Of a stretch of 64,000 bases of DNA, positions 1-4,395 are shown piece by piece. A program made the translations under genes and the position numbers. Numbering within the stretch: position 1 is the first letter of the stretch; every line of letters starts with the position of its first letter. Source of the DNA: Phycisphaeraceae bacterium (lineage in GTDB: Bacteria; Planctomycetota; Phycisphaerae; Phycisphaerales; UBA1924); contig JAHBXK010000015.1 of the NCBI GenBank assembly GCA_019636535.1, positions 1 to 64,000 of the forward strand, given 5' to 3'. Under the pieces are notes generated by a model. The model made no database searches and was not told the DNA's origin. It saw only the letters and a program-made list of their open reading frames with translations.

Positions 1-21
1 GCGCGGTTCGAGCCCTGCGGA

Positions 22-257
22 GGGGTCTTTCAGGGCAGCGCGGGGGTCTTGAGGGCCGTCAAGGGAGTCTTGAGGCCGGTCAAGGAAACCTTGAGGGCCG
101 TCAAGGAAGTCTTGAGGGCCGTCAAGGAAGCCTTGAGGGTCGTCAAGGAAGTCTTGAGGGTCGTCAAGGAAGTCTTGAGGGTCGTCAAGGGAGTCTTGAG
201 GGCCGTCAAGGAAACCTTGAGGGCCGTCAAGGAAGCCTTGAGGGCCTGAAAGACCCC
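22..257. repeat. 21-bp tandem palindromic repeat array with flanking inverted repeats
   Basis: Nine full units of 21 bp run from 46 to 234, each close to GTCTTGAGGGCCGTCAAGGA plus one base, and a degenerate tenth begins at 235. Each unit contains a near-palindrome, CTTGA-6 nt-TCAAG, so the array can fold on either strand. A 13-bp sequence, GGGGTCTTTCAGG at 22-34, returns exactly inverted at 245-257. Because 21 is a multiple of three and the unit has no stops, the array is open on both strands. The plus frame is open from base 1 to a TGA at 247-249 and would encode heptads of the VLRAVKE type, so it could be the tail of a gene entering from the left. I favour a non-coding or structural element, but cannot exclude coding. 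Confidence 0.85.
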
Positions 258-468
258 CCTTCGGTTGGGATTCCTCCCCGGAACGGGTTCCGTCGGACGC
301 GCCCACGTGCTCCCCGAAACGTGCGTCCGCATCAGCCTCGTACCCCCATTCAGGTTCCCAGCGCAACCCCTCGCCACCCCTCGCCCCCCCACCCGCACGC
401 ACCCGGTGATGCCTCCGCGCGTTGGCGCGGCGCTGCCTTCCGGCCCCCTTCGCCGGTACCCTCCCTTC
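258..468. other. C-rich non-coding stretch before the aminotransferase
   Basis: No family-like protein is encoded here. An in-frame extension of the downstream aminotransferase is open through this stretch, but it is proline- and arginine-rich and does not resemble the family N-terminus. The only recognisable signal is the -10-like hexamer at its right end. Confidence 0.5.
457..462 (+). promoter_or_regulatory. -10-like TACCCT, 6 nt before the ATG at 469
   Basis: TACCCT lies 6 nt before the start codon and there is no purine-rich ribosome site between them. If this is a -10 box, transcription starts at or next to the ATG and the mRNA is leaderless. No convincing -35 is visible. Confidence 0.5.
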
Positions 469-1794
469 ATGCCCACCTCCTCAGCCTCCCGCGCATCCCC
501 CCCGACCCCCCCGACCGCCCCAGCCGCCTCAGACAAGGGCGGGCTCCGCGTCTCCAAGCGTGTCAGCGGCCTCAAGCCCTCGGCGACCGTCGCCGTGACC
601 AACCGGGCCAAGGAACTCGTGAAGCAGGGGGTGGACGTGCTCTCGTTCGCGGCCGGTGAGCCGGACTTCGACACCCCCGTCGCGATCAAGCGGGCCGCGA
701 TCGATGCGCTGATGGCCGGGCAGACCAAGTACATGCCGACGATGGGGGACGTTGAGACGCGGAGGGTGATCGCGGAGAAGGTGACGCGGGAGAACAGGAT
801 CCCCGGTGTGACGCCCGAGCACGTGGGGATCAGCGCTGGGGGCAAGCACGCGCTCTACACGATCTGCCAGTGCCTGCTGGACTTCCCCGAGCGCAACGCC
901 CGGGCGCCCGAGGTGATCCTGCCCGTGCCGGCGTGGGTGAGTTACGCCCCGCTGGCGGAACTGGCGGGCGGGAAGATCGTGGAGGTGCAGACCTCACCCG
1001 AGTCGGACTTCAAGGCCACCGCCGAGCAGATCGCCGCGGCGATCACGCCCGAGTCGCGGATGCTGATCCTGAACTCGCCGAGCAATCCCTGCGGGACGAT
1101 GTACACCGAGGCGGAGTTGCGGGCGATCGCGAAGGTGGTGGAGGAAGCGGCGGCGAAGACGGCGCCGGGGCTGGTGGTGCTCTCGGACGAGATCTACGAG
1201 AAGATCACGTACGGCGGCGTCCCGCACTTCTCGATCGGGAGCGTGCCGGAGATCGCCGAGCGCGTGATCACGCTCAACGGGCTGTCGAAGGCGTACGCGA
1301 TGACGGGATGGCGGGCGGGGTACACCACGACGAGCGGGGCGTGGGGGCTGGAGTTCATGAAGTCGATGACGACGCTGCAGGGGCAGATGACGACGAACAT
1401 CACGTCGTTCGTCTTCCCCGCGATCCGCACCGCGCTGAAGGAGTGCGAGGCGGATGCGCAGCGGATGTGCGCGGCGTTCGGTCGGCGGGCGGAACTCATC
1501 CACCGAAGGATGACGCGGATGCCGGGCTTGAAGTGCCCGCAACCGACGGGGGCCTTCTACGTCTTCCCCGATGTGGCTGCGCACTACGGGAAGCGCTCGG
1601 CGGGAGGGAAGCCGGTCGAGTGTGCGCTGGACTTCTGCGAAGCGCTCCTGGCGGAGAACAGGGTGGCGGCCGTGCCGGGGGAGGACTTCGGCGGGCGGGG
1701 TGTGCGGCACGTGCGGTTCAGTTTCGCCTGCTCGGAGGAGCACATCGCCAAGGGGATGGACCGGCTCGGCGAGTTTCTGGCCGGGCTGCGATAG
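469..1794 (+). CDS. Class I pyridoxal-phosphate aminotransferase (aspartate aminotransferase type)
   Basis: A 441-residue fold-type I aminotransferase that would move an amino group between an amino acid, probably aspartate, and a 2-oxo acid in the cytoplasm. The family landmarks are in order: AAGEPDFDTP near residue 61, the NSPSNPCG loop near 202, the SDEIYE aspartate near 240, and the PLP lysine K274 in NGLSKAYAMTGWRAGY. The HVRFSFACS arginine region is near the C-terminus. The ATG at 469 fits the family with only a 25-residue low-complexity leader; a longer in-frame extension to 265 is not family-like. The gene stands alone, with a -10-like box directly upstream. Exact substrate is not decidable from sequence; aspartate or prephenate transaminase are both possible. 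Confidence 0.9.
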   Translation: MPTSSASRASPPTPPTAPAASDKGGLRVSKRVSGLKPSATVAVTNRAKELVKQGVDVLSFAAGEPDFDTPVAIKRAAIDALMAGQTKYMPTMGDVETRRVIAEKVTRENRIPGVTPEHVGISAGGKHALYTICQCLLDFPERNARAPEVILPVPAWVSYAPLAELAGGKIVEVQTSPESDFKATAEQIAAAITPESRMLILNSPSNPCGTMYTEAELRAIAKVVEEAAAKTAPGLVVLSDEIYEKITYGGVPHFSIGSVPEIAERVITLNGLSKAYAMTGWRAGYTTTSGAWGLEFMKSMTTLQGQMTTNITSFVFPAIRTALKECEADAQRMCAAFGRRAELIHRRMTRMPGLKCPQPTGAFYVFPDVAAHYGKRSAGGKPVECALDFCEALLAENRVAAVPGEDFGGRGVRHVRFSFACSEEHIAKGMDRLGEFLAGLR

Positions 1795-1847
1795 ACGGGG
1801 TCGAGGGCGTCATCGGCCGGGTGTGAATCGGAGCGGTGGTTGGTGGA

Positions 1848-3386
1848 TCAGTTGCCCGGCCCCGACGGCAGATCGTGCGGGAGCGTGGCGACGTCGGGGA
1901 GGGGGGGCAGGCCGAGCGAAGCGCGGAGTTCGTTCTGTTCGGTGAGGGCTTCGGCCCAACGCTCAACGGGGATGGTCCGCGCTGCGCCCCGTGAAGGCGC
2001 AGCCAGATAGGCGAAGGAGAGTTCGGGATCGGCGATCTGCGCGGGGTCGGGGGCGAAGACGATGAGCCAGAGTTCGTCCGCCTCGGGCCTGTCGAGGATT
2101 GTGTTGTTGTCGAGGCCGAAGTGCGTGAAGACCATGTCGCCGAAGCGGTAGGCAACGGTGTCGGTGGGGAAGGCGCCCGCCGAGGAGGCGGCCTTGCGCT
2201 GGCGGTCGGCTCCAGTGAGCGCTTCGATCGGCTCACCGTCGATGGTGAGATTGGGCGTGCGGGAGGGATCGGCGACGAAGTCGGCGGGTCGTACGCCGGG
2301 GCGGAGCATGAGCGCTGCGGGGTGGTGCGGGTAGACCCTCCAGAGCGCAGCGTGATCGCGCATCGCCCCGGCGAGGTGGTCGGTCTTGGCCAGCACGTCG
2401 ACCCAGGCGTTGGGTTGGACAACCGGGGCGGGTGGAGGGGGGGGCGGGATGAACCCGGGTGCGCCCGCCAGGCCCCCACCGTACATGAACCTCGCCGCGG
2501 GGTAGAGGACCAGCGCAGCGAAGACGACGAAGCCGATGAGGGGGAGCATGAGCGTGGCGAGCGCTGCGCGGCCGGCGTTGATGCGCTGGGCGCGTGCGAG
2601 CATGGGTGTGGCGATGGCCAGGAGCAGGATCAGGTAGATCGGCCAGCCGAGAAACGGCAGGAGCAGGGCGAGCGCAGCGGTCGACGCGAAACAGAAGACG
2701 ATGAACGTGCGCTCGATGCCTCCCGTGGTGCGGAGTTCACGCCTGCGCTGGAGGGCTGCGACGAAGGCGATCACGAAGTGCGCGCAGAGCATGACCGCAA
2801 CCGTGGCCACGAACGGAGGGAGGAGGGCGTAGATCGTGTTCTCGGCAGCGCGGCGGGGGATGTAGAGCGGGTTGCCGCCTGCGGTGAAGGCCAGGCTCGG
2901 GATGGAGAGGAGAAGGAAGAAGAGAAAGAGCAGGATCGCGATGAGGACCCATGTGACGAGCGCGAAGCGGAAGGCCGAGCGCGCTGGCGCGTTCAGGCGG
3001 TGGAGGGCCTCTCCGAGCATCGCGGGGTTGAAGATCGCCATCCCGACGGTGTTGCGCCATCGCGCGAACACCGAGAGGCCCCGCTCAGCGCCGTGGACCC
3101 AGGGGATGGTCAGAGGCGCGGTGAGCACCTCGGAGACCCCCGCCGCGGGGACGAGGGTCATCTCGTCCATGGTGATGCGTGCGTGGCAGCGGACGCAGTC
3201 GAAGGCGAACGGTTCGAGGTGGCCTCTGATGGAGGTGCCCGCGTAGCCCTGTGCGCAGTGGGGGCACTTGAAGGCGACCGAGCCGCGGGCGAAGACGAAT
3301 TCGGAGGGTTTGAAGGCGAGTCCGCACTCGGGGCACTGACGGCCCGGCAGGTTCCAGAGTGCGTATTGGCACTGCTTACACCGCAC
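1848..3386 (-). CDS. Zinc-ribbon multi-pass membrane protein, function unknown
   Basis: A 512-residue protein of unknown function. It opens with a zinc ribbon, CKQC and CPEC, followed by a second CPHC/CVRC pair within about 70 residues, then several hydrophobic helices between roughly residues 150 and 310. A soluble C-terminal domain rich in charged residues follows. The chosen start is a GTG at 3386 whose reading overlaps the scpA stop codon by 11 nt, giving VRCKQCQYALWNL at the N-terminus, as expected for this planctomycete family, and suggesting translational coupling to scpA. The frame is also open upstream to an ATG at 3524, but that extension translates the scpA 3' repeats as MHP repeats and looks spurious. 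Similar zinc-ribbon membrane proteins lie at 43515 and 52341. Confidence 0.75.
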   Translation of the reverse strand: MRCKQCQYALWNLPGRQCPECGLAFKPSEFVFARGSVAFKCPHCAQGYAGTSIRGHLEPFAFDCVRCHARITMDEMTLVPAAGVSEVLTAPLTIPWVHGAERGLSVFARWRNTVGMAIFNPAMLGEALHRLNAPARSAFRFALVTWVLIAILLFLFFLLLSIPSLAFTAGGNPLYIPRRAAENTIYALLPPFVATVAVMLCAHFVIAFVAALQRRRELRTTGGIERTFIVFCFASTAALALLLPFLGWPIYLILLLAIATPMLARAQRINAGRAALATLMLPLIGFVVFAALVLYPAARFMYGGGLAGAPGFIPPPPPPAPVVQPNAWVDVLAKTDHLAGAMRDHAALWRVYPHHPAALMLRPGVRPADFVADPSRTPNLTIDGEPIEALTGADRQRKAASSAGAFPTDTVAYRFGDMVFTHFGLDNNTILDRPEADELWLIVFAPDPAQIADPELSFAYLAAPSRGAARTIPVERWAEALTEQNELRASLGLPPLPDVATLPHDLPSGPGN

Positions 3387-4395
3387 CCGCGGCGTCTCCG
3401 GCGGCTGTTGCCGCGGCGGTCGGTGTTGCGGCGAGATCGGCCGTGGCGTCGGCGGGGGCGGCGGACGCTGAGGGCACCTCGGGAGACTCGGGTGCATCGG
3501 GTGCATCGGGTGCATCGGGTGCATCGGGCTCGGCGAGTTCGAGCGTGATCAGCGTGGGATCGTCGGCCTGTTCGTGGCGGACGAGGACCTTGCGCTGCTT
3601 GACCAGTTCGAGCATGGCCAGGAAGAGGCCGATGGCTTCGGAGCGTGTGCGGCCGACGAAGAGTTCGGCGAAGAGGAGGTGGGGCTTGGCGGTGGTGGAG
3701 GGGGTGGGGGTGGGCCCGGGCGAGTCCGGTGAGCCGGTGAAGGCGAGCCGACGGAGTTGGTCGAGGATGTCCTCGGCGTGGACCTCGACCGGGGTGTCGT
3801 CGAAGACGACGCGGTGCTCTCCGACGCGGGAGAAGTCCACCGACTGCATGATCCGGGCGAAGGCTTCCACCAGATCGATCAGGTGGAGGTCCTCGACTTC
3901 GACGAGCGGCTCTTCTTCCGGCGCGGCCTGGTCCGGGTCGGGCTGCATCGCGGGGGCGCGGGCGGCCTCGTAGCGGTGGGTGTACTCGGTGCGCCAGTGT
4001 TCGAGGTGCTCGGCGGCATCGCGGAAGCGCTTGTACTCAAGGAGTTGGCGGACAAGGGCGGTTCGCGGGTCGCCGGGGTCGTCCTTGCGGGGCTGATGAA
4101 CTTCCGCGTCCGGGGCGTGGTCGGCTTCGGCAGTCTGTGAACGCGCGGGCGGCGCGAGCATGCGGGACTTGATCTCGACGAGCGTGGCGGCCATGACGAG
4201 GAACTCGCCGGCGTTCTCGATGTCGATCGGGCGTGCCGTGCGGGTGAAGTCGTCGAGAAAGGCGAGATACTGCTCGGTGATCCTGGCGATGGGGATGTCG
4301 GTGATCTCGACCTCCGCCCGGCGGATGAGGAACAGCAGCAGGTCGAGAGGACCCTCGAAGGCGTCGAGCCGGATGGTGTACTCGGCGGTGGTCAA
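3376..4395 (-). CDS. scpA: Segregation and condensation protein A
   Basis: ScpA is the kleisin that joins the two SMC heads and ScpB in the bacterial condensin complex, which compacts and separates chromosomes. The N-terminus, YTIRLDAFEGPLDLLLFLI, is the hallmark of the family, followed by the ITDIPIARITEQYLAFLDDF helix region and the typical middle ARILVEIKSRMLAPP-like stretch. The start is a TTG at 4395, which places the family motif at residue 6. The C-terminus is longer than usual and ends in a low-complexity tail of Asp-Ala-Pro and Ala-Thr repeats after the winged-helix region. The 339 residues compare with roughly 250 in typical members. It overlaps the downstream zinc-ribbon gene; no scpB is in the window. 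Confidence 0.93.
   Translation of the reverse strand: MTTAEYTIRLDAFEGPLDLLLFLIRRAEVEITDIPIARITEQYLAFLDDFTRTARPIDIENAGEFLVMAATLVEIKSRMLAPPARSQTAEADHAPDAEVHQPRKDDPGDPRTALVRQLLEYKRFRDAAEHLEHWRTEYTHRYEAARAPAMQPDPDQAAPEEEPLVEVEDLHLIDLVEAFARIMQSVDFSRVGEHRVVFDDTPVEVHAEDILDQLRRLAFTGSPDSPGPTPTPSTTAKPHLLFAELFVGRTRSEAIGLFLAMLELVKQRKVLVRHEQADDPTLITLELAEPDAPDAPDAPDAPESPEVPSASAAPADATADLAATPTAAATAAGDAAGAV
3491..3526. repeat. Four perfect 9-bp tandem repeats inside the scpA 3' end
   Basis: GGTGCATCG is repeated four times without change. On the minus strand it encodes Asp-Ala-Pro repeats in the disordered tail of ScpA. Perfect repetition suggests recent slippage expansion. Confidence 0.9.

Follow-up and report, generated by a model that had tools for sequence, protein, structure and literature searches.

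Organization of the locus

The window analyzed here is a stretch of 64,000 nucleotides from a Phycisphaeraceae bacterium (G000:C7:1-64000), and its first base is the first base of its contig. A block of tandem repeats lies at this contig end, and the first gene 3' of it encodes an aminotransferase (Table 1). The original prediction, made from the letters of this DNA, had described an array of nine 21-bp palindromic units bracketed by a 13-bp inverted repeat. Both elements were recovered: TRF fitted a period of 21 with a 90% match, 0% indels, and a score of 311, nine exact CTTGA-N6-TCAAG sites were found (48, 69, 90, 111, 132, 153, 174, 195, and 216; span 48-231), and the two arms of the inverted repeat were exact. 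The units were contiguous, without spacers between the repeats, and a looser TRF register extended the array to 22-245. Given the dyad symmetry of the unit, a half-site recurs at every helix turn (10-11 bp), with CTTGA and TCAAG in alternation. The dyad symmetry of the array was significant against column shuffles (p = 0.0045), and the self-complementarity of the 236-nt strand was far above chance in comparison with dinucleotide shuffles (z = -13.7 for RNA folding and -10.8 for DNA folding).

The left-arm sequence had one further match in the window, with two mismatches, as expected by chance. A flanking 13-bp inverted repeat was found in none of the other arrays of the class described below and is thus private to the window array; inverted repeats of at least 13 bp occurred in 0.06% of mismatched flank pairs. 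The plus-strand frame at 1-249, noted earlier as open together with the opposite strand, was confirmed, and a second plus-strand frame (3-659) and minus-strand frames were also open. These frames are expected, since a stop-free unit with a length divisible by three produces them automatically.

Table 1. Features of the window array and further period-21 arrays of the source genome.
Feature	Position	Strand	Source
Left arm, exact 13-bp inverted repeat GGGGTCTTTCAGG	22..34	+	Pattern search
Degenerate first unit, overlapping the left arm	22..45		TRF register 22-245
21-bp tandem array, consensus GTCTTGAGGGCCGTCAAGGAA, 9.6 copies, nine CTTGA-N6-TCAAG dyads	46..246		TRF and pattern sites
Right arm, 13-bp inverted repeat (CCTGAAAGACCCC on the plus strand)	245..257	-	Pattern search
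211-bp gap, array to aminotransferase ATG	258..468	+	Promoter and Rfam searches
Class I/II aminotransferase, 441 aa, first gene 3' of the array	469..1794	+	Pfam PF00155, E = 6e-52
Period-21 array, unit GCTCCTCCGCGCCAGTGCTGT	C4:41046-41239 (L107 11046-11239)		Survey
Period-21 array, unit TGCGCAGAACATTTGCATGCA	C1:219050		Survey
Period-21 array, unit GTGCGCTCCGCGTGTTCGAAC	C40:19730		Survey
Period-21 array, unit CTCCTCAGGATCGATCGCGCG	C2:106453-106641		Position derived from locus L232

No match to a sigma-70-type promoter was obtained in the gap between the array and the aminotransferase gene, and Rfam searches of the array and of this gap gave no match. Orthologues of the aminotransferase were present in all family-f1 genomes searched, and a 21-bp array was found upstream of none of 20 orthologues, which makes a conserved role of the array in the control of this gene unlikely. 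A genome of the same genus (locus L102) retained the gene order aminotransferase, zinc-ribbon-like protein, and ScpA-like gene (window 469-4395); the gene to the left of its aminotransferase was divergent (ORF L102 3-1073), and the space between the two lacked an array. Given its absence from the 20 orthologues, the window array is a private acquisition at the aminotransferase locus and does not represent a conserved means of controlling this gene. The ScpA-like gene (3376-4395, minus strand) contained a perfect 9-bp repeat of 4.6 copies (window 3488-3528), encoding an Asp-Ala-Pro repeat near the C-terminus.

Occurrence of the unit elsewhere

A functional role had been considered doubtful in the original prediction if the array occurred only once and varied freely between close strains. 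A genome search for the unit identified two further arrays of the CTTGA/TCAAG family in the same genome, at C14:58246 and C4:45793, in unrelated surroundings. Genome-wide, 19 of the 25 sites with the unit core fell in these three arrays. The C14 array was intergenic. The C4 array was intragenic, being read in frame as LTGLKET heptads inside a glycosyltransferase-like gene (L005 3985-6294, minus strand; C4:44985-47294), which was named by inspection and had no Pfam hit. The heptads belong to an insert (about 125 aa) that the same-genus orthologue lacks; there, residues 401 and 527 matched at sites 28 bp apart. This gene adjoins a truB-like gene.

None of 162 other genomes of the family contained the unit pattern, and a search by sequence alone would therefore class the window array as an orphan. 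A unit scan in other lineages detected no arrays. Matches in Bacteroidales were mutually similar stretches around a two-unit match and were judged by eye to be coding, and two cyanobacterial matches comprised two units each and were not arrays.

Arrays with a period of 21 bp

A survey of tandem arrays was performed on a 1.5-Mb sample of the source genome, the remainder being covered by searches. Within the sample, all arrays of seven or more copies whose unit was at least 20 bp long and whose match reached at least 84% had a period of 21, and they comprised at least four unrelated units. Other periods (12, 15, 16, 18, and 24) were seen in shorter or simpler repeats, mostly of low complexity by eye. 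The GCTCCTCCGCGCCAGTGCTGT array was located 4.7 kb from the C4 array mentioned above, had an unrelated unit, and lay upstream of a small lipoprotein-like gene.

Arrays of the same period with new units were also present in intergenic regions of other genera: four at three loci in 0.41 Mb of a g28 genome (G050), and one in 0.2 Mb of a g2 genome (G002). A period-20 array in the latter (CCGTTGCGTCGTTTCTCGCG, 4.6 copies; L206 7469-7559) was the sole near-miss to period 21 seen. The property common to the class is the period and not the sequence, the units being mostly locus-specific. With 10.5 bp per turn of B-DNA, no whole-number period shorter than 21 bp stays in register with the helix. No description of such arrays was found in the open-access literature.

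An orphan gene family downstream of the arrays

Two of the period-21 arrays were found upstream of paralogous genes, both belonging to one orphan family (alignment A1, L230-L293). In the members, which are about 240 aa long, N-terminal helices are combined with an fn3/Ig-like domain, and the C-terminus is an invariant Ala-Ala (within a terminal [LM]AA) that resembles the end of the ssrA/ClpXP degron. The fn3-like fold was supported by the predicted structure (pLDDT 90), while the N-terminal helices were unmatched among the top hits. Searches gave no Pfam or NCBIfam match above cut-off and no convincing match to PDB sequences or PHROGs.

The family was present in 52 of 163 genomes of the bacterial family, with copy numbers from 1 to at least 17, and occurred sporadically in two further families of the order; elsewhere in the phylum, it was not seen among 392 sampled genomes. 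It was dispersed, multi-copy, and patchy, and conserved neighbor genes were found only at evidently orthologous loci. The source genome harbored six members, four of which had an upstream array (one degenerate). The family HMM identified no member in the window, which begins at the contig end; a member may be located to the left of the window array, but none of the six genes found in the source genome is truncated at its 5' end by a contig boundary.

An array at lag 21, defined as one beating 12 control lags, was carried by 34 of 59 upstream regions of the orphan family, although some of these loci are orthologous and the number of independent cases is therefore lower. The corresponding count was 0/28 at other control loci, and a loose threshold returned 11 of 970 1.5-kb tiles of the source genome, two of which were orphan-family arrays. 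Period-21 arrays are thus strongly concentrated just upstream of this family. One of the 34 arrays lay upstream of an orphan-family gene in another family of the order (L271), with the same arrangement. Arrays were also found upstream of ordinary genes, such as the aminotransferase gene of the window, and their presence was patchy between relatives.

The upstream arrays were mostly 110-300 bp long, and at nearly all loci the array was on one side only. The distance from the array end to the start codon was 95-559 bp (usually 95-360, median 248), compared with 211 bp for the window array, which shares with the class the exact 21-bp period, the few indels, and a distance of 95-560 bp to a downstream start codon. 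No conserved motif beyond composition was found between array and start codon. Global alignments of this gap region barely beat shuffled controls and were dropped as evidence of conservation.

Sequence properties of the arrays

TRF fitted 33 of the 34 orphan-family arrays, and the period was 21 in all 33. The arrays contained 5-17 copies. They differed by mismatches (mean 23%) far more than by indels (mean 3%; none in 13 arrays), a result to be read with the gap-free lag test used for detection, which favors indel-free arrays. Dyad symmetry was significant (p < 0.05) in 23 of 43 arrays, leaving about half without significant symmetry, and the palindrome score of the consensus was 0.61 compared with 0.51 in flanking 21-mers (p = 1.5e-8). 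Covariation between paired arm positions was marginal (p = 0.045), and compensatory covariation between arms is accordingly not claimed.

Variability between units of the 43 arrays had no period of 3 and leaned to 21 bp (z 2.5) and 10.5 bp (z 2.0); this lack of codon periodicity disfavors a coding origin. The purine content of the arrays carried some unexplained period-3 signal (z 4.1), which fits coding better than binding. There were 75 open frames in the arrays, equally on both strands, against 67 ± 4.5 in shuffled sequences, and no translation of an array had a Pfam match above cut-off. AT-phasing at 10.5 bp was not elevated, and simple A-tract curvature is therefore unsupported. With respect to turnover, the unit persisted with drift between the close orthologues L278 and L284 (19/21), and the units of the orthologous pair L281 and L289 were unrelated (10/21, the chance level).

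Possible function and origin of the arrays

With a probability of about one half, the window block belongs to a lineage-wide class of helically phased, non-coding 21-bp cis arrays upstream of genes. The constant period, the mostly locus-specific units, and the concentration just upstream of the orphan genes together suggest a control or binding element of a type not described before. Because the units repeat every 21 bp, dyads would recur about every 10.5 bp and all sites would lie on one face of the helix, along which a dimeric or shape-sensing DNA-binding protein could bind cooperatively. Such a protein might wrap, loop, or coat about 200 bp upstream of the promoter and thereby change the expression of the downstream gene. 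Tandem duplication would copy and homogenize the units, which would drift fast under a selection that preserves their phase. A binding or DNA-shape element would explain phase, symmetry, position, and turnover together, but not what reads such different units: the unlike units within one genome would require either many binders or one shape-sensing binder. Among the roles put forward in the original prediction, a multi-site protein-binding array fitted best, in view of the phase, the dyads above controls, the upstream position, and the many loci, although the dyads were not universal. A cruciform is possible by sequence at the window array; dyad symmetry is missing from some arrays, and a cruciform cannot be the universal property of the class.

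More tentatively, the arrays and the orphan genes might form a two-part system, in which multi-copy genes often possess a private, fast-evolving, helix-phased 21-bp array upstream. The reader could be the encoded protein or a shape-sensing nucleoid protein, phase and not sequence would be under selection, and gene-less arrays, including that of the window, would have been recruited or orphaned. An element defined by its period and not by its sequence would be invisible to annotation based on sequence similarity. If the phase is selected, the arrays would allow one to test in a natural setting whether helical phasing serves as a signal to bacteria. They also offer an entry point to an unannotated gene family that reaches at least 17 copies per genome.

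The arrays might instead be functionless minisatellites, produced by slippage and hairpin-driven template switching, with 21 bp being a quirk of replication or repair in this lineage. Mostly locus-private units that turn over, as at L281/L289, and the patchy presence between relatives agree with such an origin, and template switching can yield both dyads and whole-array hairpins. It is nevertheless rather unlikely, as it predicts neither the upstream concentration (34/59 versus 0/20 at the aminotransferase orthologues), nor a fixed period across genera, nor old arrays (57-70% match) with few indels. Transcription of the array as a leader or small RNA, folding either into serial 16-nt hairpins or into a single long one, would suit the 236-nt stem of the window array, but the symmetry is lacking in about half of the class, covariation is weak, and the Rfam search gave no match. 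Moreover, in A-form RNA, with about 11 bp per turn, a spacing of 21 bp would not be distinctive, and the gap of 200-300 bp could house a promoter downstream of the array; we consider an RNA element improbable.

A mobile repeat, also proposed originally, would make the arrays scars or targets of a mobile element or recombinase with a 21-bp target duplication, the orphan gene being its present or past cargo and gene-less arrays its left-overs. The occurrence of the window unit at three unrelated loci lends limited support to it, as do the dispersed, patchy family without conserved neighbors and the weak palindromy of the arrays, which is typical of integrase targets. It is distinctly improbable given that no transposase or recombinase neighbor was common to the loci, that arrays were one-sided at nearly all of them and had no common terminal repeats, and that members of the orphan family were absent from phage and plasmid collections and none was confirmed in viral contigs. 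Finally, the array had been suspected to be the repeat-containing C-terminus of a gene left of the contig, and a coding heptad repeat could also lie in a small upstream ORF. Open frames on both strands and the in-frame LTGLKET insert at C4 are compatible with this, and coding can hold locally, as at C4, where the array is read within a gene. For the class it is very unlikely, since unit variability had no period of 3, open frames were near the shuffled expectation, and array translations had no Pfam match above cut-off; in addition, the aminotransferase of the same-genus genome has no array on its left, where a different gene is located.

Comparison with known repeat systems

Plasmid iterons and partition arrays (the 22-bp iterons of R6K, incA of P1, incC of F, parC, and sopC) are short direct repeats with near-helical spacing. 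As in the period-21 arrays, the repeat block adjoins a gene and its sequence is private to each system. In contrast, no Rep or Par protein was present here, there were many chromosomal copies, and some arrays were gene-less; the orphan-family protein is helical and fn3-like with no recognized DNA-binding domain, and the gene downstream of the window array encodes an aminotransferase and not a cognate DNA-binding protein (the left side of the array being beyond the contig end). CRISPR arrays are likewise found near genes, but the constant-length spacers between identical repeats were absent here.

REP/BIME elements with RAYT share intergenic, partly tandem palindromic units tied to a gene family. 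In the period-21 arrays, however, the units mostly differed between loci, the period was exactly 21 bp, no RAYT-like neighbor was shared, and there was no genome-wide common core, that of the window unit being mainly confined to three arrays. The Rickettsial palindromic elements resemble the window unit in that a palindromic repeat occurs both between genes and, as at C4, in frame within a gene; they differ in being a single long element and not tandem 21-mers. Bacterial VNTRs and minisatellites are also tandem arrays with similar copy numbers (5-17) and unit drift, whereas the arrays described here had a single fixed period across genera and were strongly concentrated upstream of one gene family.
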